From Lachnospiraceae bacterium (lineage in GTDB: Bacteria > Bacillota > Clostridia > Lachnospirales > Lachnospiraceae): a DNA stretch of 64,000 nt. A program made the translations under genes and the position numbers. This document shows, piece after piece, positions 4,504 to 57,893 of this stretch. Within the stretch, counting starts at the first letter, position 1. Every line of letters starts with the position of its first letter. The stretch is taken from assembly GCA_949383255.1 (NCBI GenBank), contig CASJPF010000006.1, forward strand, positions 1 to 64,000. The letters are read 5' to 3'. The notes below the pieces were generated by a model. It had not been told where the DNA came from, did not search any database, and was given only the letters and a program-made list of their open reading frames with translations.

Positions 4504-4538
4504 CAGGAAGTATATAAGGTAACAGGAGGGGAAGAATT

Positions 4539-5360: not shown

Positions 5361-5381
5361 TGACAGGAGGAGTTAAGTGAT

Positions 5382-5771: not shown

Positions 5772-5774
5772 AAG

Positions 5775-5812
5775 ACAGCCGACCTTGTTTGATAGAAACG
5801 GGTCGGCTGTTT
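5775..5812 (+). terminator. Hairpin after the flagellar rod genes
   Basis: ACAGCCGACC (5775-5784) pairs perfectly with GGTCGGCTGT (5801-5810), giving a 10-bp stem with a 16-nt loop. The T run after it is short (TTTCCTG), so termination may be partial. It lies between the rod operon and recD2. Confidence 0.6.
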
Positions 5813-5837
5813 CCTGTTAGGGATAAGGAGGCGCAGC

Positions 5838-8809: not shown

Positions 8810-8877
8810 AGCGGCGGAAAGATACAATACATATTGAGCACAAAAAATAACAGAGATGATGTAAGTGGAGGGATTCA

Positions 8878-9294: not shown

Positions 9295-9344
9295 TTTGCT
9301 ACAAATATACTACAGAACAGGACTGCACAGGGAAAAGAGTTATT

Positions 9345-9749
9345 ATGTTAAATGAAGAAAGAATTAAGTTAATGACCAAAATGGCGTGCTATGAGGCTGA
9401 TGAAGGTAGAAAGAATGTCGCAATTGGAAGCTATTTTCGGGGGGATTATATTGGGCTACAGGTTATTAAGTCCATTATCAGTGCTACAATAGCATATGTT
9501 ATTATTTTTGTAATGTATATTTTTTATGATTTTGAGGTTTTTATGGCAGATATTTACAAGATGGATCTGCTACAGTTTGCAAAGTCGGCAATTATTAATT
9601 ATTTAATCTTTATGGCAATATATGCGGCTTTCTCATATGGGGTTTTTACCTACCGATATACAAAGGCAAAAAAGAGCCTTAAGACATATTACAATAATCT
9701 CAAGAAACTTGCTTACCTGTATGACAGGGAAACAAAAAAACAGGGATGA
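9345..9749 (+). CDS. Unknown small membrane protein
   Basis: I do not recognise this 134-aa protein. It has an amphipathic N-terminal 35 residues, two transmembrane helices (about 40-65 and 85-108) and a basic, Lys/Tyr-rich C-terminal tail. The ribosome binding site is weak (GGGAAAAGAG). It overlaps the next ORF's earliest start by 4 nt, and that gene in turn overlaps cdaA, so it belongs to the cdaA operon by position. Confidence 0.75.
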   Translation: MLNEERIKLMTKMACYEADEGRKNVAIGSYFRGDYIGLQVIKSIISATIAYVIIFVMYIFYDFEVFMADIYKMDLLQFAKSAIINYLIFMAIYAAFSYGVFTYRYTKAKKSLKTYYNNLKKLAYLYDRETKKQG

Positions 9750-9775
9750 AAGGTAAGGTTAGAGAGGAAATAATT

Positions 9776-10741: not shown

Positions 10742-11616
10742 GTATGATTCTTGAACACTTTAATTCATATATTGAAACTTTGTCATTGCGCAGTTTAAAC
10801 ATCAGGTGGGAGGATATAGTGGAGGTCATCATTATATCCTTTTTACTGTATGAGATTATGGCGTGGGTAAAACACACTAAGGTATGGCTCCTCATGAAAG
10901 GAATCATTATTATTATTGCGTTTATTCTGCTGGCGCTTATTTTCAAGATGCATACGATTATATGGATTGTCGAAAATGTATTGAGTATAGCGGTCACAGC
11001 AGTGATTGTTATCCTACAGCCAGAGCTGCGGCATGCGCTTGAGGAACTAGGGCGGAAAAGTTTTATCACAAATATTATTTCTTTTGAGAAACCCACAGAT
11101 GAGCGTTTTTCTGACAAGACGGTCAATGATTTGGTAAAAGCGAGCTTTGAGATGGGTAAAGTAAAAACTGGCGCGCTTATGGTCATTGAGCAGAATGTAT
11201 TACTTACAGAATACGAGAGAACAGGTATTGAGGTGGATGGTCTGATTTCCAGTCAATTGCTTATCAATATTTTTGAGCATAATACGCCACTTCATGATGG
11301 TGCAGTTGTCATTCGTGGCAATCGTGTTGTCTCGGCAACTTGTTATCTACCATTGTCTGACAATATGGGAATTAGTAAAGAGTTGGGAACAAGACACCGT
11401 GCCGCTGTGGGAATCTCGGAAGTGACAGACGCGCTGACAATTATTGTGTCAGAGGAGACGGGGCATGTCAGTGTCACTTACGAGGGAAAATTGTACCGTA
11501 ATCTTGACGCAGATGGTTTGCGAGAAAAGATTAATATGATACAAAATAAAGAAGTGGAGGAGAATAAGAAGCAGAAGCGCAGGCTCTGGAAAGGTAGGGC
11601 TAAGAATGAAAAATAG
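10738..11616 (+). CDS. cdaA: Diadenylate cyclase CdaA (DAC domain)
   Basis: The 292-aa protein makes cyclic di-AMP from two ATP. Three transmembrane helices lie in the first 100 residues, followed by the DAC domain with the catalytic HDGAVVI motif near 186-192 and GTRHRAA near 218-224. Both key motifs (DGA and RHR) are intact. It is membrane-bound and is followed by cdaR and glmM, the conserved cdaA-cdaR-glmM order of Firmicutes, in which CdaR and GlmM modulate the cyclase. It has a charged C-terminal extension rich in Lys and Glu. Confidence 0.97.
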   Translation: MSMILEHFNSYIETLSLRSLNIRWEDIVEVIIISFLLYEIMAWVKHTKVWLLMKGIIIIIAFILLALIFKMHTIIWIVENVLSIAVTAVIVILQPELRHALEELGRKSFITNIISFEKPTDERFSDKTVNDLVKASFEMGKVKTGALMVIEQNVLLTEYERTGIEVDGLISSQLLINIFEHNTPLHDGAVVIRGNRVVSATCYLPLSDNMGISKELGTRHRAAVGISEVTDALTIIVSEETGHVSVTYEGKLYRNLDADGLREKINMIQNKEVEENKKQKRRLWKGRAKNEK

Positions 11617-28159: not shown

Positions 28160-29278
28160 ATGAAAAAGACAAAAAGTAGAATATATGTTTGCCATACTTT
28201 TTATCATGTCTATGTGGCACTCTTAAAAGAAATGAAGATTGTGAGACAGACGCCGGCCAATCAATATCAAAAGGCAGATATTGCGTTGAGCTCTATATCG
28301 ACGGACTTTGAACGTCTAGGAGAGAGACTTGAAAAGACAGGAATTTTCCATAAAGTTTTTGCACTCGACGAAAAGCGGGAGGACTTTTTTCCAGAGCTTG
28401 CAAAATACAGAAAAAATTATAGCAATATATTAAAGCACATGATAAATCGTATTATTTTTACAAAAAAGTTAGCAAGGTGTGAGATTCCATATTTGCAGGT
28501 TATTGATTTTGCGGCATATAAAGATATTTATGTATTCTGTGATAGTGACCCAATTGGATATTATCTAAATTATAAGCATATTTATTACCATGCTGTAGAA
28601 GATGGGTTGGATTGTCTTAAAAATCTCGACGACGCCTATGTGGCAAACCACGGGCATTTTCGCTTAAAGACTTATCTTTCGCGCCAAAATCTTATTTTTA
28701 TTATGAATGGTTGGGGAAAATATTGTATTGATATGGAAATTAACGACAGAAGTGTCGTGCCTACTGATTGCCCGCGTTTTGTCGAGGAGCCAAGAAAACC
28801 ATTAGAGTTGGCGCTAACTCCAGAACAAAAAAAGTTAATGATTCAAGCGTTTATTGAGAATGCAGAGCATTTGATGGAGCAGCTAAAACCTGCGCACGAG
28901 GGTGAGGAGTTTGCCTGTTTTCTAACAGAACCGCATCCAGTCGATGTGGAGGCGCGGAAAAAGGTTTGCCTAGATGTGATTGCGCAATACTGCAAAGGTT
29001 ATCGAGTATTGATAAAACCACATCCAAGAGATACAATTGATTATGAAGTGCTCTGTCCAGATGCAGTGGTGCTTCGCGGGCGGTTTCCGGTGGAAGTTCT
29101 TAATTTTTTTGAGGGACTTCGCATAAAAAGAGCAGTTTCTATTGTAACCACAGCACTTAACAATATGGATTTTGTGGAGGAGAAAATAAATCTTGGCGCA
29201 TCTTTTTGGGATGCGTATGAGGACCCTGAAAAACATGCATATAACAAAAAGGCGGGGCTTGCAATGGCGGATAAATAA
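28160..29278 (+). CDS. GT52/polysialyltransferase-like glycosyltransferase
   Basis: The 372-aa protein starts with SRIYVCHTFYHVYVALLKEM, a typical opening of GT52-type LPS sialyltransferases. It has YKHIYYHAVEDGLDCL near 137 and YRVLIKPHPRDTIDYE near 282, the KPHPRD motif shared with polysialyltransferase-like families. GT52 enzymes transfer nonulosonic acids or other sugars. With a complete pseudaminic acid pathway 6 kb downstream, it is a candidate pseudaminyltransferase, which is inference. Confidence 0.7.
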   Translation: MKKTKSRIYVCHTFYHVYVALLKEMKIVRQTPANQYQKADIALSSISTDFERLGERLEKTGIFHKVFALDEKREDFFPELAKYRKNYSNILKHMINRIIFTKKLARCEIPYLQVIDFAAYKDIYVFCDSDPIGYYLNYKHIYYHAVEDGLDCLKNLDDAYVANHGHFRLKTYLSRQNLIFIMNGWGKYCIDMEINDRSVVPTDCPRFVEEPRKPLELALTPEQKKLMIQAFIENAEHLMEQLKPAHEGEEFACFLTEPHPVDVEARKKVCLDVIAQYCKGYRVLIKPHPRDTIDYEVLCPDAVVLRGRFPVEVLNFFEGLRIKRAVSIVTTALNNMDFVEEKINLGASFWDAYEDPEKHAYNKKAGLAMADK

Positions 29279-35310: not shown

Positions 35311-35339
35311 TTGACGGGCAAGGAAAATTATGGTAGAAT
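35311..35339 (+). promoter_or_regulatory. Sigma-A-type promoter of the pseudaminic acid block
   Basis: TTGACG (35311-35316) and TAGAAT (35334-35339) have the ideal 17-nt spacing, 40 nt before the pseB start codon. A small hairpin TTGGC-TGAA-AGCCAA (35269-35283), related to the GTAACAG repeats, lies just upstream. Confidence 0.8.
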
Positions 35340-35379
35340 ATTCAAAATCAAAGGATTTTGCAAAAATGGAGGAAATAAA

Positions 35380-36375
35380 ATGTTATTAGATAATAAAACA
35401 ATATTAATTACAGGTGGTACAGGCTCTTTTGGAAGATGCTTTACAGAGTATGTGCTAACACATTATAACCCCAAAAAGATTATTATCTATTCGCGGGATG
35501 AGTTCAAACAGTGGATGATGGCAAATGATTTTGCACAATACAAAGAAAAATTGCGCTTTTTTATTGGAGATGTGCGCGATTATGAGCGTATGAAACGCGC
35601 ATTTGAGGGTGTGGACTATGTAATTCACGCTGCGGCGCTCAAACAAGTGCCTGCGTGCGAGTACAATCCCAATGAGGCGATTAAAACAAATGTCAATGGC
35701 GCACAGAATGTAATTGATGCAGCACTCAATACAGGGATTCAAAAGGTGGTTGCGCTGTCTACAGACAAGGCAGTCAATCCAGTAAATTTATACGGCGGTA
35801 CGAAATTAGTATCGGACAAATTGTTTATTGCTGCCAATGCTTACTGCGGCACAAAGGACTTGAACTTTTCCATTGTGCGATATGGAAATGTGGCAGGCAG
35901 CCGTGGATCAATTATACCACTTTTTCAGAAATTAATTGATGAGGGTGCTAAGGAGCTTCCAATTACAGACTATCGCATGACGCGGTTTTGGATTAGTTTG
36001 ACGCAAGGGGTTGAGCTTGTGATTAAGGCACTTGAGGAAGCAAAGGGTGGTGAGACGTTTATCAGCCGGATTCCATCTTTTAAGATTACAGACCTTGCAG
36101 AAGCGATGGCGCCGGGTATGAAGACAGTGGAAGTCGGTATTCGCCCCGGTGAGAAGCTTCATGAGGTCATGATTACAGCGGAAGACTCTATGACAACTTA
36201 CGAGTATGAAAAGAATTTTATTATCTATCCACAGATGTTCTGGCAGGAGTCAAAGCGCCCAAATCCAAGTGGTAAGAAGGTAGATGATGGTTTTTACTAT
36301 TCTTCTGGAAACAATACAGAATGGCTTTCTGTAGAACAGATTCGTGCACTTTTAAAGACAGACCTTCATGAGTAG
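35380..36375 (+). CDS. pseB: UDP-GlcNAc 4,6-dehydratase (5-inverting), PseB
   Basis: The 331-aa SDR enzyme performs the first step of pseudaminic acid synthesis, giving UDP-2-acetamido-2,6-dideoxy-beta-L-arabino-hexos-4-ulose. TGGTGSFG is near 10, HAAALKQVPACEYNPNEAIKTNVNG near 83-107, and STDKAVNPVNLYGGTK near 126-141 with Asp, Lys and Tyr of the catalytic set. It is the short soluble form without membrane helices, unlike the protein at 53109. The ATG follows TGGAGGAA; a frame opening at 35311 is the -35 box. A PseC gene follows. Confidence 0.96.
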   Translation: MLLDNKTILITGGTGSFGRCFTEYVLTHYNPKKIIIYSRDEFKQWMMANDFAQYKEKLRFFIGDVRDYERMKRAFEGVDYVIHAAALKQVPACEYNPNEAIKTNVNGAQNVIDAALNTGIQKVVALSTDKAVNPVNLYGGTKLVSDKLFIAANAYCGTKDLNFSIVRYGNVAGSRGSIIPLFQKLIDEGAKELPITDYRMTRFWISLTQGVELVIKALEEAKGGETFISRIPSFKITDLAEAMAPGMKTVEVGIRPGEKLHEVMITAEDSMTTYEYEKNFIIYPQMFWQESKRPNPSGKKVDDGFYYSSGNNTEWLSVEQIRALLKTDLHE

Positions 36376-36396: not shown

Positions 36397-37590
36397 ATGG
36401 AAAAACCAGCAATCGCCGGAGGCACTCCGGTTCGGGACACAAAATTATTTTATGGACATCAGTATATTGACGCGGCAGATGTCAAGGCTGTGGAGGAAGT
36501 CCTAATCAGCAATGATTTAACCTGTGGGCCGAAAGTTATAGCACTTGAGCAAAAACTCTGCGCGCTGACAGGAGCAAAATATGCAGTTGTGTGCAGCAAT
36601 GGCACAGCGGCGCTTCATATTGCAGCGATGGCAGCAGGTGTTGGTGCAGGAGATGAGCTTATTACCTCGCCGATTACCTTTGCTGCTTCTGCAAACTGTG
36701 CGCTTTACTGTGGAGCAACCCCAGTTTTTGCAGATATTGATCCAGAAACTTATAATATTGATCCAGAAAGCGTTCTGGAAAAGATTACGAGCAAAACAAA
36801 GGCAGTGGTAGCAGTGGATTATACGGGGCAGGCTGCCAAGCTAGAGGAATTGATGGCACTGTGCCATAAGAGAGAGATTGTGTTGATAGAAGACGCTTGT
36901 CATTCTATTGGGACAAAGTATAAAGGAAAGCCTGTTGGCAGTATAGCGGATATGACTATATTTAGTTTCCACCCAGTTAAGACAGTGACAGGCGGCGAGG
37001 GTGGCGCAGTTCTTACAAACCGCAAAGATTTGTACGAAAAGCTTTTGCTCTACCGTTCGCATGGCATTACAAAAAAGGAAGCGTATTACGTAAATGAAAG
37101 TCATGGCCCTTGGTATCATGAACAAATTGATTTGGGATATAATTATCGACTGACAGATATTCAATGCGCGCTAATATTGAGTCAGATTGATAAACTTCCA
37201 CAGTTTTCCAAGCGGCGCAAGGAGATTGTAGAACAATACAACAAGGCATTTTTGCAGATACCACAACTTTTTGTGCAGCGAGAGATTCCGGAGTCCGATA
37301 CGACAAGGCATCTCTACATACTGCGAATCCGGCCGGAATTGCTCAATATTGACCGCAAGGGATTTTTTGAGGCAATGATGGCAGAGAACATTTATTGCAA
37401 TGTGCATTATATTCCAGTGTATTGGCACCCCTATTATGAAAAACTTGGCTATAAAAAGGGATTATGCCCAAATGCGGAAAAGTTGTATCAAGAGATGATG
37501 AGTCTGCCAATCTATTATTCTTTGACGGACAAAGATGTGAATGATGTAATATGGGCAGTGCAAAAGATTGTGAACTATTATAAAAAATAA
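36397..37590 (+). CDS. pseC: UDP-4-amino-4,6-dideoxy-N-acetyl-L-altrosamine transaminase, PseC
   Basis: The 397-aa PLP enzyme of the DegT/DnrJ/EryC1/StrS family aminates the PseB product at C4. LSNDLTCGPKVIALEQKL-like N-terminal features, NGTAALHIAAMAAGVG near 68, EDACHSIGTKYKGKPVGS near 166 and SFHPVKTVTGGEGGA near 190 with the PLP Lys at about 195 are visible. Both the start motif GGTPVRDTKLFYGHQYID and the position between pseB and pseF support PseC rather than another aminotransferase. Confidence 0.95.
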   Translation: MEKPAIAGGTPVRDTKLFYGHQYIDAADVKAVEEVLISNDLTCGPKVIALEQKLCALTGAKYAVVCSNGTAALHIAAMAAGVGAGDELITSPITFAASANCALYCGATPVFADIDPETYNIDPESVLEKITSKTKAVVAVDYTGQAAKLEELMALCHKREIVLIEDACHSIGTKYKGKPVGSIADMTIFSFHPVKTVTGGEGGAVLTNRKDLYEKLLLYRSHGITKKEAYYVNESHGPWYHEQIDLGYNYRLTDIQCALILSQIDKLPQFSKRRKEIVEQYNKAFLQIPQLFVQREIPESDTTRHLYILRIRPELLNIDRKGFFEAMMAENIYCNVHYIPVYWHPYYEKLGYKKGLCPNAEKLYQEMMSLPIYYSLTDKDVNDVIWAVQKIVNYYKK

Positions 37591-37609: not shown

Positions 37610-38329
37610 ATGAAAAGTGTAGCAATCATAACGGCAAGGGGCGGCAGCAAACGGATTTCGCGCAAAAATATTCGGCCATTTTTGGGAAAACCGATTTTAG
37701 AATATAGTATTGAGGCGGCTTTGCAAACAGAACTGTTTGAGGAAGTGATGGTGTCAACAGATGACGCGGAGATTGCAGAGATTGCACAGCAGGCAGGAGC
37801 AAAGGTTCCATTTTTTCGGAGTGCGGAGACTGCCAATGATTTTGCTACAACGGCAGATGTAATCGCAGAAGTTTTGGCAGCGTATGCACAGATTGGGAAA
37901 ACATTTGAAGCGGTAAGTTGCATTTATCCCACAGCGCCTTTTGTGACAGCAGATACGTTAAGCGCAGCAATGCAACTTTTAGAGCAAAATCAGGCAGATT
38001 GTGTGATTCCTGTTGTAAAATTTTCTTTTCCGCCACAGAGAGGTGTCATTATTGACAATGGTAAAATTGCACCCAAATGGCCGGAGAATATGGCAAAACG
38101 CTCGCAGGATTTAGAGCCGATTTACCATGATTGTGGTCAGTTTTATTGTTTAAATGTAGAGCGCTTTTTACAACAGAAAGCAATTTGGATGGAACATGCG
38201 ATTCCATTCATACAAGAGGAACGATATGTGCAGGATATTGACACTTTGGAGGATTGGGCGCTTGCAGAAATGAAGTACAAGCTCTTGCAGGCAGAAAGGA
38301 GCAAAAAGGCAGATGGGAAGTACAATTAA
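37610..38329 (+). CDS. pseF: Pseudaminic acid cytidylyltransferase, PseF
   Basis: The 239-aa protein activates pseudaminic acid as CMP-Pse. The CTP-binding opening IITARGGSKRISRKNIRPFLGKPIL is at 6-30, VMVSTDDAEIAEIAQQAGA near 46-64, and IYPTAPFVTADTL near 104. A PseF assignment over NeuA rests on the neighbouring pse genes and on the KRISRKNI wording. It overlaps pseI by 17 nt. Confidence 0.93.
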   Translation: MKSVAIITARGGSKRISRKNIRPFLGKPILEYSIEAALQTELFEEVMVSTDDAEIAEIAQQAGAKVPFFRSAETANDFATTADVIAEVLAAYAQIGKTFEAVSCIYPTAPFVTADTLSAAMQLLEQNQADCVIPVVKFSFPPQRGVIIDNGKIAPKWPENMAKRSQDLEPIYHDCGQFYCLNVERFLQQKAIWMEHAIPFIQEERYVQDIDTLEDWALAEMKYKLLQAERSKKADGKYN

Positions 38330-39374
38330 TATAAACGAACGGATTATTGGAGATGGATGCCCTGCCTATATTATTGCGGAAATGTCTGCAAACCATGCGG
38401 GCAGTATTGAGCGGGCGTTGGAACTGATTCATGTGGCAAAAGACGCCGGTGCAGACTGTGTAAAGATACAGACTTACACAGCAGATACGATGACAATAAA
38501 CTGTCAGAATGAATATTTCCAGATTGGAAAAGGCACTTGGGGAGGGGAGAATCTCTACGAACTGTATCAGAAGGCATATACGCCGTGGGAATGGCAAAAA
38601 CAGCTTTGCGACGAGGCTGCAAAAGTGGGGATAGATTTTCTCTCAACACCATTTGACACAACTTCTGTTGATTTTCTTGAGAATCTTGGAGTACCATTTT
38701 ACAAAATTGCTTCTTTTGAACTGGTGGATATTCCTTTACTAGAATACATTGCATCAAAGCAGAAACCAATCATTATGTCAACAGCAATGGGAACTTTGGA
38801 GGAGATTGAGGAAGCAGTTGCGGCGATTTACAGTACAGGAAACAAACAGCTTGCGCTAATGAAATGTTCAAGTGCTTACCCAGCAAAAAGTGAAGAGATG
38901 AATCTGTGTATGATTCGCGATATGAAGGAACGATTTGGCATTCCGGTGGGGCTTTCTGATCATTCTATGGGGGCGTTTAGCGCTGCAACTGCAACTGCGC
39001 TTGGCGCCAACCTAATTGAAAAGCATTTCTGTATGAGTCGTGCTATTAAAAATCCAGATTCTAGTTTTTCTATGGAGCCAGAAGAATTTCGGGATATGGT
39101 TTGTCAAGTGCGCGAGGTGGAAAAGGCGTTGGGAACAGTCCACTATGGTGTTTCTAGCCAAGAGGAAAGCAATACATGTTTTCGGCGGTCTTTATTTGTG
39201 GTGCAGGACATTGCGGCGGGGGAAGTGCTCACACCAGATAATATTAGAAGTATTCGGCCAGCATATGGATTAAAACCAAAGTATTACAAAAAAGTATTAG
39301 GGCAAACTGCAAAGCGCGATTTAAAGCGCGGCACACCATTATCTTTTTCTGATATAGATTGTGATCTGGAGTAA
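38313..39374 (+). CDS. pseI: Pseudaminic acid synthase, PseI
   Basis: The 353-aa protein condenses the altropyranose with phosphoenolpyruvate. An N-terminal NeuB-type TIM barrel (CPAYIIAEMSANHAGSIERALELI near 14, GADCVKIQTYTADTMTI near 42, ISTPFDTTSVDFLE-like stretch near 108) is followed by a C-terminal SAF domain (VVQDIAAGEVLTPDNIRSIRPAYGLKP near 295). The stop codon TAA is part of the palindromic element that begins at 39371. PseI rather than sialic or legionaminic acid synthase is inferred from PseB/C/G around it. Confidence 0.94.
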   Translation: MGSTININERIIGDGCPAYIIAEMSANHAGSIERALELIHVAKDAGADCVKIQTYTADTMTINCQNEYFQIGKGTWGGENLYELYQKAYTPWEWQKQLCDEAAKVGIDFLSTPFDTTSVDFLENLGVPFYKIASFELVDIPLLEYIASKQKPIIMSTAMGTLEEIEEAVAAIYSTGNKQLALMKCSSAYPAKSEEMNLCMIRDMKERFGIPVGLSDHSMGAFSAATATALGANLIEKHFCMSRAIKNPDSSFSMEPEEFRDMVCQVREVEKALGTVHYGVSSQEESNTCFRRSLFVVQDIAAGEVLTPDNIRSIRPAYGLKPKYYKKVLGQTAKRDLKRGTPLSFSDIDCDLE

Positions 39375-39525: not shown

Positions 39526-40710
39526 ATGAAAAAATTAGAAACAAATCTGTATTTGCGACAAGCTTGTCTAGCAGATAGAGAACTTTTGTTTGAATGGGCA
39601 AATGATTCTGTAGTCCGCGCAAATGCATTTCATACAAAGAAGATTCCTTATGCGGACCATGTAAAGTGGTTTGCAGATGTAATGACAAAGGATTCTATAC
39701 AACAATATATTTTGTGTGATAATAAGATTCCTGTAGGACAAATACGGTTCAATATGGAAGGCGATAAGGCATTTATTGATTACAGTATTGCGGCGGATTT
39801 TCGCGGAATGGGATATGGAACGATATTAATGCAGTTGCTTTTGCAGAAACTAGAAACAGCAAAGATGTCAGATGAAATAACGTTGGTTGGGCAGGTAAAA
39901 CAGGAAAATCTTGCGTCTGCAAGTGTCTTTGAAAAATGCGGATTTACGCCAATAACAAAGAAAGATTATATTCAATATGAGTATGTTTGGAGGCGACATG
40001 GAATGCGGATTATTATCGCGACAATAAAGTCATGGAATATTGCGCGCGCGCAGGCGCTACAAAAAAAGTATGAAGGGGTGCACAATATTCGCATTTTTAC
40101 CAAGAAGGAAGAGTTTACCGCAGAAAATGTGTATAATTTTCAGCCAGATTATATTTTCTTGCCACACTGGTCTTATATTATGCCGCGTGAGATTACCGAC
40201 AACTGGGAATGTATTGTGTTTCATATGACAGATTTACCTTATGGGCGCGGTGGAAGCCCTTTGCAAAATTTAATAGTGCGCGGTCATAAAGAGACAAAAA
40301 TCTCAGCGATAAAAATGACAGAGAAACTTGACGGCGGACCAGTGTATATGAAACATACGTTGTCTTTGGAAGGCAGCGCGCAAGAGATTTTTATACGGTG
40401 TGCAGATATTATTTTTGCAGAGATGATACCACTTTTTTTGGACGGCGGCAATCAGAAAAAACTAGAACCTGTGCCGCAGGAGGGAGAGCCAGTAATCTTT
40501 AAGCGCAGAAAACCTGAGGAAAGTCAGATTACATCAGAGATGGATATAGAAAAAATTTACGATTATATTAGAATGCTGGATGCGGAAGGTTATCCCAAGG
40601 CGTTTATGGAGTTTGGAACATATCGTTTGGAGTTTGCGCAAGCCAATCTTTCAGAGGATAAAAAAGAGCTTTCAGCACAAGTAATCTTTCGGTGCAAGGC
40701 GGAGGAATAG
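39526..40710 (+). CDS. PseH-like N-acetyltransferase fused to a formyltransferase domain
   Basis: The 394-aa protein has two parts. Residues 1-160 are a GNAT domain with LRQACLADRELLFEWAND, the acetyl-CoA loop FRGMGYGTILMQ near 90 and SASVFEKCGF near 130, as in PseH. Residues 165-330 form a formyltransferase fold: FHMTDLPYGRGGSPLQNLIVRG near 230 and IKMTEKLDGGPVYM near 263, matching the methionyl-tRNA formyltransferase motifs including His and Asp. The usual catalytic Asn is a Val here. PseH acetylates the C4 amine made by PseC; a formyl group could be added to the same or another amine. GGGGGGAG precedes the ATG. Confidence 0.85.
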   Translation: MKKLETNLYLRQACLADRELLFEWANDSVVRANAFHTKKIPYADHVKWFADVMTKDSIQQYILCDNKIPVGQIRFNMEGDKAFIDYSIAADFRGMGYGTILMQLLLQKLETAKMSDEITLVGQVKQENLASASVFEKCGFTPITKKDYIQYEYVWRRHGMRIIIATIKSWNIARAQALQKKYEGVHNIRIFTKKEEFTAENVYNFQPDYIFLPHWSYIMPREITDNWECIVFHMTDLPYGRGGSPLQNLIVRGHKETKISAIKMTEKLDGGPVYMKHTLSLEGSAQEIFIRCADIIFAEMIPLFLDGGNQKKLEPVPQEGEPVIFKRRKPEESQITSEMDIEKIYDYIRMLDAEGYPKAFMEFGTYRLEFAQANLSEDKKELSAQVIFRCKAEE

Positions 40711-40715
40711 CAGAG

Positions 40716-41417
40716 ATGGGAAAAACAGTATTGGTTGTGGCAGCACACCCAGATGATGAGATTCTTGGCGTTGGTGGCACAGTCGCAAGGCACGTGGCAG
40801 AGGGCGACATTGTCTATGCGTTAATTTTGGGAGAAGGACAGACTTCCCGTGGCAGACACAGAGAAGATATTGATCAAAATGTAGTAAAAGAGTTGCATCA
40901 AAATACGCTGGAGAGTGCAAAAATTATTGGGTATCAGGAGGTATTTTTTGCTGATTTTCCAGACAACCGCTTTGACCATGTGGATTTGCTTGATATTGTA
41001 AAAGTAGTCGAACAAATGATTGACAAATTGCGCCCGCAAGTACTCTATACACATTACAGTGGAGATTTAAATGTAGACCATCAATATACTGCGCGTGCAG
41101 TACTCACAGCGTCAAGACCAATTGGCACGTACTGCGCTGAAGAAATTTATGCTTTTGAGACGCTTTCATCTTCCGAGTGGAATTTTGATTACAGCACACA
41201 ACCAGCATTTTGCCCCAATGTGTTTATTGATATTACAGATTATTATCATAAAAAAGAGCAGGCAATGGACTGTTATGTGTCAGAACTTTGCAATTTTCCA
41301 CACCCAAGAAGTCTTGTAGGCATGGATGTCTTGTCAAAAACACGCGGTATGACGGCCGGCATGGAGCGTGCAGAGGCGTTTATGTTGGTGCGAAGTGTAA
41401 GGAGGCGTTTTGACTAG
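40716..41417 (+). CDS. PIG-L/LmbE family N-acetyl-sugar deacetylase
   Basis: The 233-aa protein has the metal-binding motif VVAAHPDDEILGVGGTVARH at 7-26, the second motif HYSGDLNVDHQYTARAV near 112 and a later HPRSLVGMD near 198. The family removes N-acetyl groups from GlcNAc-type sugars with zinc. It lies 5 nt after the GNAT-formyltransferase fusion and directly abuts pseG, so an N-acetyl of the pseudaminic acid pathway is the likely target. GGAGG (40701-40705) supports the ATG at 40716. Confidence 0.9.
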   Translation: MGKTVLVVAAHPDDEILGVGGTVARHVAEGDIVYALILGEGQTSRGRHREDIDQNVVKELHQNTLESAKIIGYQEVFFADFPDNRFDHVDLLDIVKVVEQMIDKLRPQVLYTHYSGDLNVDHQYTARAVLTASRPIGTYCAEEIYAFETLSSSEWNFDYSTQPAFCPNVFIDITDYYHKKEQAMDCYVSELCNFPHPRSLVGMDVLSKTRGMTAGMERAEAFMLVRSVRRRFD

Positions 41418-42545
41418 ATGTTTTATATTCGTGCGGACGGAAATACAAAGATCGGCATGGGGCATGTGATGCGCTGCCTGTCAGTTGCGGAGGCAACAGC
41501 AAAGATAGACTGCTTGCATCCGCCTATTTTTATATTAGCGGATGAAACGTGCCGCTCTTTGATAGAGGAGCGAGGATTTCAAGTGATTGTATTGCATACA
41601 GACTACTGCGATATGATGGGAGAGCTTCCACTGTTAGAAGCAATTTTTCAGGAAAAACCTACAATTAAAAATGTAGGAAATCAGAATAAAAATATTGTGC
41701 TGGTGGATAGCTATCAGGCAGATAGCACATATTATTTTGCCCTAAGCAAAATGGTGAAAACAGTGTGCTTTGAGGATATGGGGCAGGCGTACCCAGTTGA
41801 TTTGCTGATCAATTATAATCTCTATGCTCCGCGGCTAGCTGCGCAATATATTGCGGCGGAGACAGAAAGTCAGGCAATCAATAAGTATCCGCGCAAGGTT
41901 CTGCTGGGAGCAAATTATATGCCGCTTCGCAAGGCATTTCAAACACCTTCTAATTACAGTGTGGCAGAGCAAGTGCGCAATGTTACAATCACCACAGGAG
42001 GAAGTGATCCTTATTTTGCAACAGCTACGCTTGTAGAGGCATTAATGCGTGATCCTATGATAACAGAACAGGAAATAACATTGCATTTGATCAGTGGACC
42101 TTTTAATGAATTTGCAGAGGAATTAAAGCGAAAATATCAAAATTATGAAAAGAAATCCGCAAATGCAACGACATTGCAGATTCAAATTCATGAAAATATA
42201 AAAGATATGCGCAGTCTTTTGTATGATAGCGATATAGTGATAACAGCAACAGGAAGCACAATTTATGAAGTGAGTGCGCTGGGTGTTCCAATGATTGTTT
42301 TTTATTTTGCTGAAAATCAAAGACAGGGAGCCAAGGAGCTAGAAAGGCTGACAAATATTGTCAATGCAGGAAATATTGCCATAGAGCCTGATAGAACAGC
42401 AGAACGTATACGAGATACACTAAGACGCTGCATTCAGAACAAAAAGTACAGAGAGCGTTTATACAGACAGGAAAAAGAACTGATTGATGCAAAAGGAGCA
42501 CAGCGTATTGCAGAACAGATAAAGGAATTGCTGCTATCACAGTGA
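41418..42545 (+). CDS. pseG: UDP-2,4-diacetamido-2,4,6-trideoxy-altropyranose hydrolase, PseG
   Basis: The 375-aa protein has a GT-B-like fold and cleaves UDP from the PseH product. The opening FYIRADGNTKIGMGHVMRCLSVAEA is diagnostic. VLVDSYQADSTYYFALSK near 95 and TITTGGSDPYFATATLVEAL near 190 follow, then SDIVITATGSTIYEVSALGVPMIVFY near 272. It starts at the base after the previous stop codon. Confidence 0.93.
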   Translation: MFYIRADGNTKIGMGHVMRCLSVAEATAKIDCLHPPIFILADETCRSLIEERGFQVIVLHTDYCDMMGELPLLEAIFQEKPTIKNVGNQNKNIVLVDSYQADSTYYFALSKMVKTVCFEDMGQAYPVDLLINYNLYAPRLAAQYIAAETESQAINKYPRKVLLGANYMPLRKAFQTPSNYSVAEQVRNVTITTGGSDPYFATATLVEALMRDPMITEQEITLHLISGPFNEFAEELKRKYQNYEKKSANATTLQIQIHENIKDMRSLLYDSDIVITATGSTIYEVSALGVPMIVFYFAENQRQGAKELERLTNIVNAGNIAIEPDRTAERIRDTLRRCIQNKKYRERLYRQEKELIDAKGAQRIAEQIKELLLSQ

Positions 42546-45569: not shown

Positions 45570-45581
45570 ATGGTTATCAAA

Positions 45582-46712
45582 ATGATTAATTTTAACGTAC
45601 CACCATTTACAGGCAGGGAATTGGAATATATTAGGCAAGCGGTCGAAAATCAAAAAATTTGTGGGGATGGTCCGTTCACACAGCGATGTAGTGCATGGAT
45701 TGAGGAGAAAACAGGTGCTACAAAGTGTCTCCTGACCCCTTCCTGCACACAGGCAAACGAGCTTGCGGCGCTGTTAATTGACATTCAGGAGGGAGAAGAG
45801 GTGATATTGCCCTCTTACACTTTTGTGTCCACTGCGGACGCCTTTGTGCTGCGCGGCGCAAAGGCAGTGTTTGTCGATATCCGTCCTGACACTATGAATA
45901 TAGATGAGACTTTGATTGAGCAGGCTGTGACAGAGCGGACAAGGGCGATCTTGCCAGTTCATTATGCAGGGGTGGCGTGTGAGATGGATACCATTATGGA
46001 GATTGCGAGACGTCACCACCTCTTTGTGGTAGAGGATGCAGCGCAGGGAATTGCAGCGACTTACAAGGGGAGGGCGCTTGGCACAATTGGAGACTTTGGC
46101 TGTTATTCTTTTCATGAGACCAAGAATCTAAGTATGGGAGAAGGCGGTGCACTGCTCATTCAGGATAAAAAATATATTAGCGAGGCCGAGATTATTCGGG
46201 AGAAAGGGACAAATCGCTCTCAATTTTACAGAGGGGAAATTGATAAATATCGGTGGATGAATTATGGTTCGTCGTATCTGCCAAGTGATATGAATGCAGC
46301 GTATCTCTGGGCTCAGATTGAGCAGATTGATATCATTACACAAAAGCGTTTGGCGCTGTGGAGACAGTATGATGCGCTGTTGCGCCCTCTTCAGGAGCGT
46401 GGAGTTTTAGAGTTGCCAACTGTGCCAGAGGGCTGTGTGCACAATGGGCATATGTATTATATTAAGACGAAAGATTTGGATGAGCGCACGCAGTTAATTA
46501 CATTTTTAAAGGAAAATGGCATTATGGCTGTATCTCACTATGTTCCGCTACACTCAGCGCCTGCGGGACTTAAGTTTGGACGGTTTTCGGGGGAGGATGT
46601 GTATACGACGCGGGAGAGCGAACGCTTGTTGCGTCTGCCAATGTTTTATGCGCTGACATCGGACCAAGTGGACTATATTGTTAGTAAAGTGAAGGAGTTC
46701 TATCACGTATGA
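45582..46712 (+). CDS. rffA: WecE-like dTDP-4-amino-4,6-dideoxygalactose transaminase
   Basis: The 376-aa PLP aminotransferase follows the WecE pattern closely: INFNVPPFTGRELEYI at the start, LLTPSCTQANELAALL near 50, SYTFVSTADAFVLRGAKAVFVDIRPDTMNID near 77-107, and CYSFHETKNLSMGEGGA near 173 with the PLP Lys near 181. WecE turns dTDP-4-keto-6-deoxyglucose into dTDP-Fuc4N. An in-frame ATG at 45570 exists, but family alignment supports 45582. RmlA and RmlB, needed for the substrate, are not in the window. Confidence 0.88.
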   Translation: MINFNVPPFTGRELEYIRQAVENQKICGDGPFTQRCSAWIEEKTGATKCLLTPSCTQANELAALLIDIQEGEEVILPSYTFVSTADAFVLRGAKAVFVDIRPDTMNIDETLIEQAVTERTRAILPVHYAGVACEMDTIMEIARRHHLFVVEDAAQGIAATYKGRALGTIGDFGCYSFHETKNLSMGEGGALLIQDKKYISEAEIIREKGTNRSQFYRGEIDKYRWMNYGSSYLPSDMNAAYLWAQIEQIDIITQKRLALWRQYDALLRPLQERGVLELPTVPEGCVHNGHMYYIKTKDLDERTQLITFLKENGIMAVSHYVPLHSAPAGLKFGRFSGEDVYTTRESERLLRLPMFYALTSDQVDYIVSKVKEFYHV

Positions 46713-48577
46713 TGGATGACCGCACCAGAGTAAAGGCAGCAAAAGTGTGTGGTGCACTAACTTTTACGTTTTCGCTCGCGCTGCTTTTATCTGCCCAATT
46801 TGATTTTTATTATGATCTAAATGATGACACCATGATTAAAGATATTGTGTCAGGGGCATACACAGGCCAGCCGAGTGGTTATTGTATTCAGATGCTGTAT
46901 CCTCTGGCGTGGTGCATTGCGCTTTGTTACAGGGCCATTCCAACGGTTCCGTGGTATGGCTTGTTTTTGTGTCTGTGTCAATTTGGTGTGATTTTTTTGA
47001 TTACTGTGAGGTTATTGTCTCTTGCGCAGCGTGTGCGAACAGGGCTTTTGGCGCTTGCGGTGGAGGCAGCACTTGCGGTTGGACTATTTTTGAGAGAAAT
47101 TGTGGTGATACAGTACAGTGTGACCGCAGGAATTTGTATGGCCGGGGCAGTATTTTTGTTTCTCACAGCAAAAAATGCCGATAAGCCGTCTGTTTTTTTC
47201 CGCAGAAATCTAATTCCGCTGCTGCTTGTTGTGCTGTCTTTTTTGATTCGGACAGAAATCTGTATGATGCTTTTGCCGTTTTTGCTGCTCGCAGGGCTTG
47301 CCCGATGGTGCGGGGAGGAATATTTTTTTACCGCGGTGAATTTTAGAAAGTATTTGATGCTGGTCGGCATAGCATTTTTGGGTATGGCAGCGGCATATTG
47401 TGTAGATTTGGTGGCATATCAGGAAAGCGAGTGGAGTAACTTTCGGAGCTTTTTTAATGCCCGGACGAAATTATATGATTTTTATGGATTACCTGATTAC
47501 GCAGACAACCAGAAATTTTATGAGTCGATTGGATTGTCACAGGAATCTTACACACTGCTTGAAAACTATAATTTTGCTCTGGATGAATCGATTGACACAT
47601 GGAGGTTGGAAGCGATTGTCAATTATCAAGAACAGAGTGCTCAAACTTCCAGTTATGGAAGCGGATTGAAAAACACATTTGGCTTTGTCAGCAAAAACAG
47701 TGTGCGGGAGGCATTGTGGCTGTATAGAAATCAAATTTTAAAAGATTTACAGATGGTAAGGAGTGCCATTTTGCGTCAAACACCTGATTTGGGGATTCCA
47801 GCGGGGCTGGGAGTTCGCATGGCGGTGCTGGTTCTGTATCTGTTGTACTTTGCAGTTTGTGTCATTCCAGCAACAGGAAAACGGCGTGTGCTTGCAGTTT
47901 TTAAGGTTGTGTGTCTCTTGATGATTCGGATAGTTTTGTGGTTGTATTTATATATGGTGGACAGGCTGCCAGACCGTGTCACAATCCCTCTGTTAATGTT
48001 GGAATTCGTGATGCTTATTGCGTTCGTAATCTGTGATAATTCTTTTAAGAAAGACAGCAAGGTAGTAAAGTATATCTTGTATGTTTTATGTACTGTAGGA
48101 TTTCTTGTAGTGTCTGTGGGAAATCTTCAGAGTGTGCACAGTGAATATCAAAACAGAGCACAGGCAGATGCGCGCTGGATTGCATTGATGGATTATTGCC
48201 GAAAAAATGGAAATAATTATTATATCGTGGATGTGTATTCCTCTACCTCTTATCAGGGAACTCCTTATTCGGAGAAAATATTTACAAGCGGTTTTTATAA
48301 AAATTTTGATATATGCGGTGGGTGGGCGGCAAAAAGTCCTCTGGCAAGACGGAAACTGGAGCGACATCATTTTAAAGATATTCAAAATGCATTGTACAAT
48401 CCCAAAGGACGAAATGCGACAAAGGCATATTTTGTGGTAAAGCCCGACCAAGAACTAGACTGGCTGATACAATATTACAAAAAGCGCGGCATGGCTGTGT
48501 GCACGGAGTCTGTTGACCAAGTTCAGACAGCGTCTGGTACACACGCATTTGATATCGTGGCAGTCAAACAACTATAA
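46709..48577 (+). CDS. Polytopic membrane protein, possible GT-C glycosyltransferase
   Basis: The 622-aa protein has about twelve transmembrane helices. After the first helix comes an acidic loop, FDFYYDLNDDTMIKDIVSG (residues 30-48), as in GtrII-like and other GT-C glycosyltransferases. A soluble C-terminal part of about 150 residues follows. I cannot assign a precise family. It overlaps the aminotransferase gene by 4 nt (ATGA). Neighbours that make an amino sugar and load a polyprenyl phosphate suggest it transfers that sugar outside the membrane. Confidence 0.7.
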   Translation: MMDDRTRVKAAKVCGALTFTFSLALLLSAQFDFYYDLNDDTMIKDIVSGAYTGQPSGYCIQMLYPLAWCIALCYRAIPTVPWYGLFLCLCQFGVIFLITVRLLSLAQRVRTGLLALAVEAALAVGLFLREIVVIQYSVTAGICMAGAVFLFLTAKNADKPSVFFRRNLIPLLLVVLSFLIRTEICMMLLPFLLLAGLARWCGEEYFFTAVNFRKYLMLVGIAFLGMAAAYCVDLVAYQESEWSNFRSFFNARTKLYDFYGLPDYADNQKFYESIGLSQESYTLLENYNFALDESIDTWRLEAIVNYQEQSAQTSSYGSGLKNTFGFVSKNSVREALWLYRNQILKDLQMVRSAILRQTPDLGIPAGLGVRMAVLVLYLLYFAVCVIPATGKRRVLAVFKVVCLLMIRIVLWLYLYMVDRLPDRVTIPLLMLEFVMLIAFVICDNSFKKDSKVVKYILYVLCTVGFLVVSVGNLQSVHSEYQNRAQADARWIALMDYCRKNGNNYYIVDVYSSTSYQGTPYSEKIFTSGFYKNFDICGGWAAKSPLARRKLERHHFKDIQNALYNPKGRNATKAYFVVKPDQELDWLIQYYKKRGMAVCTESVDQVQTASGTHAFDIVAVKQL

Positions 48578-48593
48578 GACAGAGGAGATTTTT

Positions 48594-49145
48594 ATGGAGC
48601 CATTGAGAAAAGATTTGATTTTAGAGGGAGCACAAATTTATTTAAGGCCAATTTGCGCTGCCGATACAGATAGGGTTGTAAGATGGAGAAACGATAAGAA
48701 TGTAGTAAAAAATTTTATTTATCGGATTCCTCTTTCTAGGGAGGCGCATTTAGACTGGCTAAAAAATAAAGTAGAACGAGGATACGTACATCAGTTTGTT
48801 ATTTGTAGAAATGAAGACAAGATGCCCCTTGGCAGTGTCTATCTTCAAAACTTTGAGGAGCAGAATAAAAAGGCGGAGGAAGGTATTTTTCTTGGAGAGG
48901 AGCAGGCGTATGGAAAGGGTATTGGCACAGAGGCTGCAAAACTAATGCTGCAATATGCCTTTGAGCAATTAAGGCTACACAAGGTAGCAGCGCGAGTATT
49001 GGCGTACAATCGGGCAAGTGTGTGTATGCATGAGAAGGCAGGCTATGTGCAGGAGGCGTATTTTAGGGAGGAATTGTTTCTGGACGGAAAATATGAGGAC
49101 CTAATTTTTTTTGGTGCAATCAATCCATCTAGTAAGGAACTGTAG
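48594..49145 (+). CDS. GNAT N-acetyltransferase for a 4-amino sugar (WecD/PseH/RimJ-like)
   Basis: The 183-aa protein has the RimJ/PseH-like start IYLRPICAADTDRVVRWRND near 17, GSVYLQNFE near 84, the acetyl-CoA loop EEQAYGKGIGTEAAKLMLQYAF near 100 and VLAYNRASVCMHEKAGYVQEAYFREE near 134. It probably acetylates the amine made by the WecE-like enzyme two genes upstream, the step done by WecD in enterobacteria. PseH activity is an alternative. AGAGGAG lies 6 nt before the ATG. Confidence 0.85.
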   Translation: MEPLRKDLILEGAQIYLRPICAADTDRVVRWRNDKNVVKNFIYRIPLSREAHLDWLKNKVERGYVHQFVICRNEDKMPLGSVYLQNFEEQNKKAEEGIFLGEEQAYGKGIGTEAAKLMLQYAFEQLRLHKVAARVLAYNRASVCMHEKAGYVQEAYFREELFLDGKYEDLIFFGAINPSSKEL

Positions 49146-56256: not shown

Positions 56257-56907
56257 ATGTATCGAAAATATATGAAACGGCTGTTGGATATTTTGATATC
56301 TCTCACGGCGCTCATTTTGCTTAGCCCTGTGTTGTTAGTAGTCGCAGTGCTTGTCCGCATAAAGCTTGGCGCACCAATTATTTTTCATCAAGACAGACCC
56401 GGATATCACGAGAAAATTTTTCGGCTTTATAAATTTAGAACAATGACAGATGCGCACGATGCGGACGGTGCATTGCTGCCAGATGCGGTCAGACTGACGA
56501 AGTTTGGAAAGATGCTGCGGGCGACTAGCCTTGATGAGCTTCCTGAACTGTGGAATATCTTAAAAGGAGATATGAGTTTGATTGGTCCGCGTCCGCTTCT
56601 TGTAAGCTATTTGCCATATTATACAAAGGAGGAAAGTCTTCGCCATACTGTCAGACCCGGGTTGACAGGGCTTGCACAGGTGCGTGGCAGAAATTTGCTA
56701 GACTGGGATACACGGTTTGCAACAGATGTAGAATACGTAAGAAAACTTACATTTACACTTGATATAAAAATATTTTTTTTGACAATCCGAAAGGTATTTG
56801 TTCATGAGGATATTGTGGTGGATACCAATCAGGCAGAGGGTAATTTTGCTGAAATTAGAAAGGCAAAACAGAAGGCGGAAGCCGAAAAAAGAGAGGTGGA
56901 GACATGA
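56257..56907 (+). CDS. Monotopic phosphoglycosyltransferase (PglC-like sugar transferase)
   Basis: The 216-aa protein has one N-terminal re-entrant membrane helix (MKRLLDILISLTALILLSPV, 5-25) and the compact PglC-type domain: LYKFRTMTDAHDADG near 54-68, TSLDELPELWNILKGDMSLIGPRP near 89-112 and RPGLTGLAQVRGRN near 132. It transfers a sugar-1-phosphate, often a 4-amino-4,6-dideoxy-GlcNAc derivative, to undecaprenyl phosphate. It overlaps the ATP-grasp gene by 4 nt. Confidence 0.93.
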   Translation: MYRKYMKRLLDILISLTALILLSPVLLVVAVLVRIKLGAPIIFHQDRPGYHEKIFRLYKFRTMTDAHDADGALLPDAVRLTKFGKMLRATSLDELPELWNILKGDMSLIGPRPLLVSYLPYYTKEESLRHTVRPGLTGLAQVRGRNLLDWDTRFATDVEYVRKLTFTLDIKIFFLTIRKVFVHEDIVVDTNQAEGNFAEIRKAKQKAEAEKREVET

Positions 56908-57893
56908 ATCTTTTAATCTTAAGCTGTGGGACAAGAAACAAAGTTGTTCAATATTTTAGGGAGGCATTTGGAAAGGAAGGTCGCGTAATCTGTACGGACT
57001 GCAGCCCCTATGCACCTGCATTGTACGAGGCAGATGCCTATTATATTGTACCGCGCATTACGGAGCCAGGATATCTGGGTATTTTATATGACATTTGTAA
57101 AAAGGAATCAATTACAGGGGTGCTTTCGCTTATTGACCCAGAATTGTCATTGATTGCAGCACACAAAAATCAGTTTGCAGAGCTGGGGGTAACTGTAATT
57201 GGTTCAGATTATGCGCTGTGTGAGCGTTCATTGAATAAGTGGGAGCTGTACTGTTGGATGAGAGAGCATGGCTATCCCTGTGTAAAGACATATGCATTAT
57301 GGGAGGATTTTGACAGCGCGCTCAATCAGGGTGAGATTGCCTTTCCTGTGTTTGTCAAGCCGATGAAAGGCAGCGCCAGCATACAGATTGCAAAGGCGCA
57401 GGACCGGGAGACAGCCGCATTTTTATTCTCTCACGGCGAGGAGATGATAATACAGGAGTATATGACAGGACAGGAAATTGGATCAGACGTCTATATTGAT
57501 TTGGTGAGCAAGGAAGTGGTATCTATTTTTACCAAAAAGAAGTTGGTGATGCGCGCCGGTGAGACAGATAAGGCGATATCCTTTTTTGACGCCAATCTAA
57601 ATAGTCAAATCACACAGTTTGTCCGCGAGAATGGTTTTGTGGGTCAGATTGATATTGACTTGTTTGAGCAGGATGGAGTGTATTATTTCTCGGAGGTAAA
57701 TCCTCGGTTTGGAGGAGGTTATCCACATGCATATGCCTGTGGCGTTGACCATATGACATTGATTAAAAATAATCTTCTGGGCATTGCCAATCCAGTTAGG
57801 ACAGCACCTTATCCACAAAATCAGGTGATGATGAAATACTGTGAAATTATGTTATTAGATGCACAGGAGCCAAAGAAGGAAACGCCAATATGA
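56904..57893 (+). CDS. ATP-grasp ligase in a 4-amino-sugar operon
   Basis: The 329-aa protein has an N-terminal PreATP-like domain (LLILSCGTRNKVVQYF at the start) and an ATP-grasp domain with FPVFVKPMKGSASIQIAKA near 149, IIQEYMTGQEIGSDVYID near 187 and FSEVNPRFGGGYPHAYACG near 263, which hold the Mg-ATP ligands. ATP-grasp enzymes make an amide or peptide bond through an acyl phosphate. It lies between PglC-like and PglA-like genes (4-nt overlaps each side), where a PglD N-acetyltransferase would be expected, so it may join an amino acid or other carboxylate to the 4-amino sugar. That role is inference. Confidence 0.82.
   Translation: MNLLILSCGTRNKVVQYFREAFGKEGRVICTDCSPYAPALYEADAYYIVPRITEPGYLGILYDICKKESITGVLSLIDPELSLIAAHKNQFAELGVTVIGSDYALCERSLNKWELYCWMREHGYPCVKTYALWEDFDSALNQGEIAFPVFVKPMKGSASIQIAKAQDRETAAFLFSHGEEMIIQEYMTGQEIGSDVYIDLVSKEVVSIFTKKKLVMRAGETDKAISFFDANLNSQITQFVRENGFVGQIDIDLFEQDGVYYFSEVNPRFGGGYPHAYACGVDHMTLIKNNLLGIANPVRTAPYPQNQVMMKYCEIMLLDAQEPKKETPI

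Follow-up and report, generated by a model that had tools for sequence, protein, structure and literature searches.

The window, i.e. the whole 64,000-nucleotide stretch of Lachnospiraceae DNA analysed here, contains a set of pseudaminic acid (pse) biosynthesis genes, in the midst of which lie a GNAT acyltransferase domain fused to a formyltransferase (FMT) domain and a PIG-L deacetylase. The features are as follows:

28160..29278, + strand: GT52-family glycosyltransferase, inferred candidate CMP-nonulosonate transferase (PF07922, 45.6 bits, cut-off 26.1)
35311..36375, + strand: PseB, inverting UDP-GlcNAc 4,6-dehydratase (TIGR03589, 534 bits; true start probably internal to the ORF)
36397..37590, + strand: PseC aminotransferase (TIGR03588, 459.5 bits)
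37610..38329, + strand: PseF, CMP-pseudaminate synthase (TIGR03584, 291 bits)
38313..39374, + strand: PseI, pseudaminate synthase (TIGR03586, 473.2 bits)
39526..39984, + strand: GNAT domain, residues 1–153, candidate PseH (Pfam GNAT; AlphaFold2 GNAT fold)
39985..40005, + strand: GNAT–FMT junction, with GGAGG at 39989–39993 and an in-frame ATG at 40003 (Met160); the stop codon of relatives is lost
40003..40710, + strand: FMT domain, residues 160–394, of the PDB 1zgh subfamily (PF00551/PF21553; 1zgh match; alignments)
40716..41417, + strand: PIG-L (LmbE-like) metal-dependent deacetylase (PF02585; alignment; AlphaFold2 fold)
41418..42545, + strand: PseG, UDP-sugar hydrolase (TIGR03590, 149.4 bits, narrowly under the cut-off of 153.55)

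All four pse genes upstream of the fusion, i.e. those for PseB, PseC, PseF and PseI, exceed their NCBIfam equivalog cut-offs, and the role suggested for the glycosyltransferase follows from its membership of GT52, which we take to be a family that includes sialyltransferases. Other sugar genes are also present in the window, including WecE at 45570. The ORF at 39526–40710 (+ strand) has no internal stop and encodes one protein of 394 amino acids, in which GNAT models match residues 8–141 (PF13302, 58.3 bits, Pfam cut-off 25.4), PF00551 Formyl_trans_N matches residues 194–279 (36.0 bits, cut-off 26.1) and PF21553 Formyl_trans_C_2 matches residues 330–386 (94.3 bits, cut-off 27). The ATG of the PIG-L gene, at 40716, lies 5 nt past the stop of this ORF (PF02585, 95.5 bits, cut-off 28.2). 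The initial annotation had described a GNAT–formyltransferase fusion followed 5 nt later by PIG-L and then by PseG, and these ORF and profile calls confirm that order.

The GNAT had also been called PseH-like, a description that its genomic context supports and its sequence score does not, the match to the PseH model TIGR03585 being 38.2 bits against an equivalog cut-off of 93.1. A second GNAT at 48588–49142 scores higher (79.6 bits, also under the cut-off) and sits in the WecE block. In congeners where both are visible, the 48588 GNAT stays with WecE, unlike the 39526 GNAT, which stays with PseI and PseG; for this reason the latter is favoured as PseH, and the higher-scoring protein is disfavoured by the company it keeps. 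Within the genus the GNAT has PseI on one side and FMT on the other, PseG taking the latter place when FMT and PIG-L are absent; it is missing from two species (G003 and G016), and homologues are fused to PseG (G035) or PseI (G410). The AlphaFold2 model of the domain (pLDDT 94.3) has a GNAT fold, and in a VIA-align comparison of the model PseH did not stand out from other GNATs. A further acyltransferase, besides FMT, is present in all 28 evaluable clusters of the genus (27 GNATs and one protein of the lipoyl-PglD type) and in all 13 evaluable clusters outside it, ten of which have a GNAT; in the other three (L006, G980 and G887, one of them on a 4-kb contig) no GNAT was seen and a second formyltransferase occupies its place. 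On this sequence evidence the 39526 GNAT is a candidate PseH for the 4-amine of UDP-4-amino-4,6-dideoxy-AltNAc.

A second assembly from the window species (L004, JAAZZQ010000056.1, genome G722) has the same open frame across GNAT and FMT; it shows 27 mismatches to the window over a 15,362-base alignment, 3 of them inside the fusion ORF, so an assembly error restricted to one genome does not account for the fusion. As far as sampled, it is seen only in the window species (2/2 assemblies); GNAT and FMT are separate genes in all 29 congeners where both are visible, and in the nearest other species, G021, a TGA closes GNAT right before the FMT ATG. Neighbouring genes are joined elsewhere too, FMT and PIG-L forming one ORF in G007 in addition to the GNAT–PseG and GNAT–PseI joins mentioned above. 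The idea that placing both acyltransferases in one polypeptide is the novelty here is rejected on these observations: the fusion is a species-level loss of a stop codon between adjacent genes, dispensable to the pathway, and, since the genes are separate in every informative congener, incidental. GGAGG and the in-frame ATG at 40003 are kept in the window, so that a separate FMT start is still possible. Purifying selection seems to act on both halves, with low dN/dS between the window and G021 by the Nei–Gojobori method (GNAT half, dN 0.116 and dS 0.80; FMT half, dN 0.070 and dS 1.22; dS is high in both). FMT itself recurs with PIG-L in other genomes; it is this pair, not the GNAT–FMT fusion, that is the meaningful unit.

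The pairing was followed through 36 species of the genus, i.e. the window species and 35 congeners. FMT and PIG-L occur in cis in 29 of them, neither occurs in three, and the locus is cut by a contig end in four; among the uncut loci of these species, none has FMT alone or PIG-L alone. In the three species without the pair (G009, G026 and G035) GNAT is followed directly by PseG, and these species occupy three separate positions in the pse-gene tree, with adjoining node supports of 0.935–0.999. A whole-genome search of 11 genomes found no PIG-L in these three or in G174, a member of another genus that has neither gene, in which G133 has both. For two of the cut loci (G021 and G033) the same search placed a close PIG-L on a different contig; in two (G016 and G005) FMT stands at the contig end, and the assembly holds no close PIG-L.

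Fourteen FMT loci turned up outside the genus, and every one shares its cluster with PIG-L and PseI. In a phylum sample of 398 genomes, which yielded 45 PseI loci at ≥45% identity, PIG-L is present at seven and FMT at five, all five within the seven (hypergeometric 1.7e-5; 1.1e-4 without the window). A 1zgh-type FMT is also carried by six other genomes of the class to which the window belongs, in every case in a pse cluster. No uncut locus with FMT lacks a PIG-L gene, that of G980 being broken into two ORFs; FMT is broken in G530. PIG-L occurs without an FMT of the window type in G344, which carries a different formyltransferase together with a GNAT lying about 8 kb off next to PseF, and in the nonulosonate clusters of G629 and G544, where a transferase was not found. 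Mariluticola has PIG-L and another formyltransferase, with no PseH candidate found adjoining the latter, and this cluster does not fit the three-enzyme logic set out below. Among clusters with a distant NeuB-type synthase, six have PIG-L and a PglD-like protein, with no formyltransferase detected; G063 and a Halorussus plasmid each carry such a synthase with both a formyltransferase and PIG-L. Phage records gave distant formyltransferases only (4 records, <26% identity). The paired presence and absence of the two genes supports the suggestion of the initial annotation that, in the pse pathway, the deacetylase may strip an N-acetyl group which formyl then replaces. The clusters that have PIG-L and no FMT of the window type, the broken copies in G980 and G530, the loci of G016 and G005 and the low PseH score of the GNAT speak against it.

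The two proteins were also considered individually. In PIG-L the AHPDDE and D-x-N-x-D-H metal motifs are intact in 11/11 aligned rows, the window included, and the AlphaFold2 model (pLDDT 83.3) matches the fold of BC1534, BshB and diacetylchitobiose deacetylases. The fold search gave the general family only and no substrate hint, and the fold family also holds GalB, a non-deacetylase. The substrates of characterised PIG-L enzymes are 2-acetamido sugars, and the window protein is, from its sequence, a candidate remover of a 2-N-acetyl group. The FMT domain carries the VFHMTDLPYGRGGSPLQNL motif. At the Asn position of N-x-H...D, which we take to be the catalytic triad of sugar N-formyltransferases, the window has Val, and all inspected FMT rows have Val, Ile or Cys; H77 and D113 (numbered on window 39994–40707) are invariant in 11/11 and 14/14 aligned rows. 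Without the usual catalytic Asn, formyl-transfer activity is not assured; this residue is absent throughout the rows of a conserved subfamily, and several other formyltransferases of such clusters likewise lack it, and we do not accept its loss as proof of a dead domain. A role as the cell's tRNA formyltransferase is rejected on the basis of the score against TIGR00460 (methionyl-tRNA formyltransferase; 40.6 bits, equivalog cut-off 201.5) and of a second Fmt-like ORF of 315 amino acids in the same genome (G000:C1:121533). FMT is a candidate N-formyltransferase for the amine that PIG-L would free.

Taken in order, PseB and PseC would produce UDP-4-amino-4,6-dideoxy-L-AltNAc, the GNAT, as PseH, would acetylate the C4 amine, PIG-L would strip the original N-acetyl at C2 and FMT would formylate the freed C2 amine from N10-formyl-THF, after which PseG, PseI and PseF would complete the synthesis of CMP-Pse5Fo7Ac. 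We hold this acyl swap, with that product, to be somewhat favoured by the evidence; the swap may take place on the UDP-sugar or later. The initial annotation had offered a 5-acetamido-7-formamido sugar as its example, which is not the likeliest product, as the combination of PseH, PIG-L and FMT points to formyl at N5: to make a 7-formyl sugar it would be enough to exchange PseH for a formyltransferase, and no deacetylase would be needed.

That simpler scheme, in which FMT formylates the PseC-made 4-amine to give Pse5Ac7Fo and GNAT and PIG-L act on different substrates or contribute to a mixed population, nevertheless deserves consideration. Sugar formyltransferases of known function use 4-amino or 3-amino nucleotide sugars. 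Pse5Ac7Fo is cited from Pseudoalteromonas distincta in PMC3210612, and Geobacillus type III flagellin islands combine fmt2 with pse genes, PseH not being reported in the part of PMC5109656 consulted. It has, however, no need for PIG-L, yet FMT and PIG-L are jointly absent at three places in the genus, and the further acyltransferase is retained in the evaluable clusters, three of which show a pair of formyltransferases and no GNAT; we judge it unlikely. Those three clusters make diformyl sugars plausible there, and would suit a scheme in which PIG-L removes the 4-N-acetyl added by PseH, or both acetyls, before FMT reformylates, as a form of editing or on the way to a 5,7-diformyl sugar. Adding an acetyl and then stripping it from one position would be futile, though, and both the 2-acetamido substrates of characterised PIG-L enzymes and the fold neighbours of the window protein speak against it, making this scheme improbable.

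The replacement of Asn by Val, Ile or Cys might instead mean that the group added by PIG-L and FMT is not formyl, which the invariant His and Asp of the triad, and the lack of Asn in several other formyltransferases of such clusters, render quite improbable. There is only a very slim chance that the two proteins are bystanders acting on another surface sugar of the locus, such as a WecE-made 4-amino sugar; the other sugar genes of the window, WecE among them, and a formyltransferase–PIG-L pair in a non-nonulosonate cluster of Sulfitobacter would agree with this, but the FMT loci outside the genus sit in pse clusters without exception (14/14).

Returning to the acyl swap at C5, pseudaminic and legionaminic acids with differing acyl groups at N5 and N7 have long been known from structures, and the PseH step explains the C7 group; to our knowledge, the enzymes that alter the C5 group are mostly unknown. 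The co-travelling PIG-L and formyltransferase are a testable two-enzyme candidate answer for N5-formyl, and probably act as a linked pair that swaps one acetyl for formyl on a sialic-acid-like surface sugar. The pair may also serve as a marker by which surface-sugar formylation can be predicted in Lachnospiraceae, in further genomes of the phylum and in at least one cyanobacterium; Synechococcus sp. NIES-970 is among its carriers. We give roughly even chances to a broader scheme, in which deacetylate–reacylate editing at C5 and a swappable PseH slot together generate combinations of N5 and N7 acyl groups, including 5,7-diformyl pseudaminate. In such a scheme PIG-L would free the GlcNAc-derived amine and a partner transferase, often of the 1zgh type without the classical Asn, would recap it, and the occupant of the PseH slot would be a GNAT, an additional formyltransferase or a lipoyl-PglD protein supplied by a 2-oxoacid dehydrogenase of its own.

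Considering known systems, the window PIG-L shares fold and metal motifs with BshB and the diacetylchitobiose deacetylases, and is distant from them in sequence (68.9 bits against BshB1, cut-off 182.5; 17–22% identity in structural alignments with fold neighbours). FMT has the PF00551 fold in common with ArnA-type sugar N-formyltransferases (NF005998, 53 bits) but is far under the equivalog cut-off of 777, is a short form with a PF21553 C-terminus and lacks the Asn. It belongs to the same subfamily as PDB 1zgh (E 7e-79 over query residues 4–225; VFHMTDLP motif in common), presumably from Clostridium thermocellum, whose deposited name of methionyl-tRNA formyltransferase is a label, with no tested function according to the search listing; the present analysis offers a possible function for this structure. 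The core genes of the canonical pse pathway (PseB-C-H-G-I-F, leading to Pse5Ac7Ac) are present in the window, which differs in the divergent GNAT of the PseH slot and in the extra FMT and PIG-L. A ‘deacetylase’ is listed among the pse genes of Aeromonas flagellin islands, with no function stated in the part of PMC7874193 consulted, and no link between PIG-L and nonulosonate formylation was found in the open-access literature, a weak negative for that scope. A precedent is the archaeon Halorubrum sp. PV6, which has 5-N-formyl-legionaminic acid and a predicted formyltransferase, HrrPV6_1050, co-transcribed with leg genes in a cluster that also holds a NeuD homologue (PMC6137143). The available text of that paper contains no mention of ‘deacetyl’, ‘PIG-L’ or ‘LmbE’, and its main text none of the HrrPV6_1052 product. 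Although its sugar is legionaminic rather than pseudaminic acid and its formyltransferase is predicted only, the Halorubrum system, as described in the available text, combines formyl at the nonulosonate N5 with a formyltransferase in the cluster, as we propose for the window.

The pseudaminic acid (pse) cluster of the window runs PseB, PseC, PseF, PseI, GNAT–formyltransferase, PIG-L and PseG, and its open reading frames bear out the initial annotation of a fused GNAT–formyltransferase followed 5 nt past its stop by PIG-L, an LmbE-like putative deacetylase, and directly after that by PseG. Here GNAT denotes the candidate PseH and FMT the formyltransferase of the PDB 1zgh subfamily, while G- and L-numbers denote genomes and loci taken from genomes or plasmids, respectively. 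The features of the window are:

from 39526: GNAT–FMT open reading frame of 394 residues, GNAT domain joined to formyltransferase
45570-49145: block of WecE-type aminotransferase, 622-aa protein (without Pfam match at 1e-5) and second PseH-like GNAT, which stays beside the pse genes in many congeners
56904-57893: ATP-grasp protein with PylC-like N-terminal domain, among polysaccharide genes

The fusion is real in the window species, since a near-identical record from a different assembly, G722 (27 bases differ in a 15,362-base alignment), keeps it. In G021, the nearest other species, the GNAT stops at a TGA and the FMT has its ATG three bases on; at the site of this TGA the window has other codons, and it retains both GGAGG (39989-39993) and an in-frame ATG at 40003. 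As GNAT and FMT are separate genes in all 29 congeners showing both, the presence of both acyltransferases in one polypeptide, which had been put forward as part of a possible new arrangement, is incidental, and the fusion itself is ordinary. Operon neighbours are joined in other genomes as well (FMT to PIG-L in G007, GNAT to PseG in G035, GNAT to PseI in G410), which suggests a role for both GNAT and FMT in the pse pathway. Elsewhere, locus L093 (G174) contains a single 598-residue open frame matching both PseF and PseB (7991-9784).

FMT and PIG-L form a cassette. The pse locus was retrieved for each of the 35 congeners returned by a search, and its genes were mapped by tblastn, with L004, from G722, used in place of the window. 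Of the 36 species, 29 have the two genes in cis, three (G009, G026 and G035) have neither, and four (G005, G016, G021 and G033) have a contig that breaks off within FMT or next to it. Whole-genome searches of 11 genomes found no PIG-L in G009, G026, G035, G174 or G016; in G021 and G033 a close PIG-L turned up on a separate contig, and in G005 the only match was distant. The three species without the pair are scattered in a PseB/C/F/I tree of 36 taxa (G006 and G008 omitted for missing data): G009 lies next to the carrier G018 (support 0.996), G035 adjoins a clade of carriers (0.995, 0.997) and G026 adjoins G016/G019/G028 (0.999, inner node 0.935). The deeper nodes and root are weak, with support down to 0.307, and the tree therefore allows both gain and loss of the pair. 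In another genus, G133 has both genes and G174 neither.

Beyond the window genus, 14 more loci carry an FMT of this subfamily: G133; G356, G410, G530, G687; G746, G887, G895, G927, G980, G1046; and a Synechococcus NIES-970 plasmid, a Saganbacteria MAG and an Anaeromyxobacter MAG. PIG-L and PseI are present in the cluster at all 14. Two of these clusters contain a broken gene, FMT in G530 and PIG-L in G980, in each case split across two overlapping ORFs through real decay or sequence error:

L106 (G530) 9108-9796: split FMT
L131 (G980) 10316-10988: split PIG-L

A phylum sample of 398 genomes gave 45 PseI loci at at least 45% identity, six of them partial matches; PIG-L is nearby in seven and FMT in five, all within the seven, an overlap whose hypergeometric probability (1.7e-5, or 1.1e-4 without the window) is indicative only, as species are not independent.

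The nearest match of FMT is PDB 1zgh, a structure deposited under the name methionyl-tRNA formyltransferase. Its motif VFHMTDLP is without the classical Asn two residues ahead of the His in all rows inspected, the His and Asp are invariant across alignments, and dN/dS is low. PIG-L keeps the AHPDDE and D-x-N-x-D-H motifs, and its predicted model (pLDDT 83.3) matches BC1534, BshB and diacetylchitobiose deacetylases. The predicted GNAT model (pLDDT 94.3) has a GNAT fold, with PseH structures ranking among, not above, other GNATs in its matches.

Considering which nitrogen is formylated, were FMT a mere substitute for PseH, neither PIG-L nor GNAT would be needed. An extra N-acyltransferase is nevertheless found in 28/28 evaluable genus clusters (27 GNAT, one lipoyl-PglD type; G008 is cut) and in 13/13 evaluable clusters outside the genus (G356 is cut). 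Its retention alongside FMT and PIG-L fits a route in which the PseH-slot enzyme would acylate the C4 amine of the UDP-sugar (C7 of the product), while PIG-L and FMT would swap the acyl group at C2 (C5). We regard the pathway variant as new, its formylation cassette being predicted to act at N5. In three of the 13 (L006, G980 and G887, the last on a 4-kb contig) a second formyltransferase is present and no GNAT was seen; from their gene content, these clusters are predicted to make 5,7-diformyl pseudaminate:

L006 12786-13532: second formyltransferase, cluster also with FMT and PIG-L
L131 (G980) 7915-8442: the same
L135 2605-3105 (4-kb contig): the same

Other clusters are less tidy. G344 and Mariluticola have PIG-L and one different formyltransferase, with a GNAT some 8 kb off adjoining PseF in the former and no PseH candidate found adjoining in the latter; in G629 and G544, which have PIG-L, a transferase was not found in the cluster. 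PIG-L is accompanied by a PglD/NeuD-like protein in six clusters whose synthase is of a distant NeuB type (L115-L120, from G474, G633, G586, G669, G654 and G600); no formyltransferase was detected in them.

In two congeners four genes stand in the place of the GNAT, called from ORFs in both and from Pfam matches of all four proteins in G003 and of the lipoyl-PglD protein in G016:

L068 (G003) 3995-9532 and L087 (G016) 2389-7786: 2-oxoacid dehydrogenase E1 combining alpha and beta; lipoyl domain joined to PglD-like hexapeptide acyltransferase; lipoate-protein ligase; dihydrolipoamide dehydrogenase

It looks as if an acyl group is made on the lipoyl arm and passed from there straight to the amino sugar; in the literature on pseudaminic acid and lipoyl, the available part of PMC4875605 does not treat such a gene set.

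Related gene pairs occur in other settings. On a Sulfitobacter plasmid (L111, 7980-9634) a formyltransferase and PIG-L overlap by 1 base near UDP-sugar epimerase and aminotransferase genes, with no nonulosonate cluster in view, and the acyl swap may thus be used on other amino sugars too. Priestia and Cytobacillus plasmids (L109, L110) encode a PIG-L ~40% identical to that of the window, with genes for a GT4-family glycosyltransferase and for a ‘carbamoyl-phosphate synthase’ after it; the Priestia set lies close to spore coat genes, and the stretches in view carry no annotated pse genes. In G063, from the family of the window, a formyltransferase overlaps PIG-L in a cluster that we read as leg-type, and a Halorussus plasmid groups formyltransferase, NeuB, PIG-L and NeuC genes together. 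A precedent for N5 formylation is offered by Halorubrum PV6, which, according to the available part of PMC6137143, carries 5-N-formyl-legionaminic acid and co-transcribes a predicted formyltransferase gene with its leg genes.
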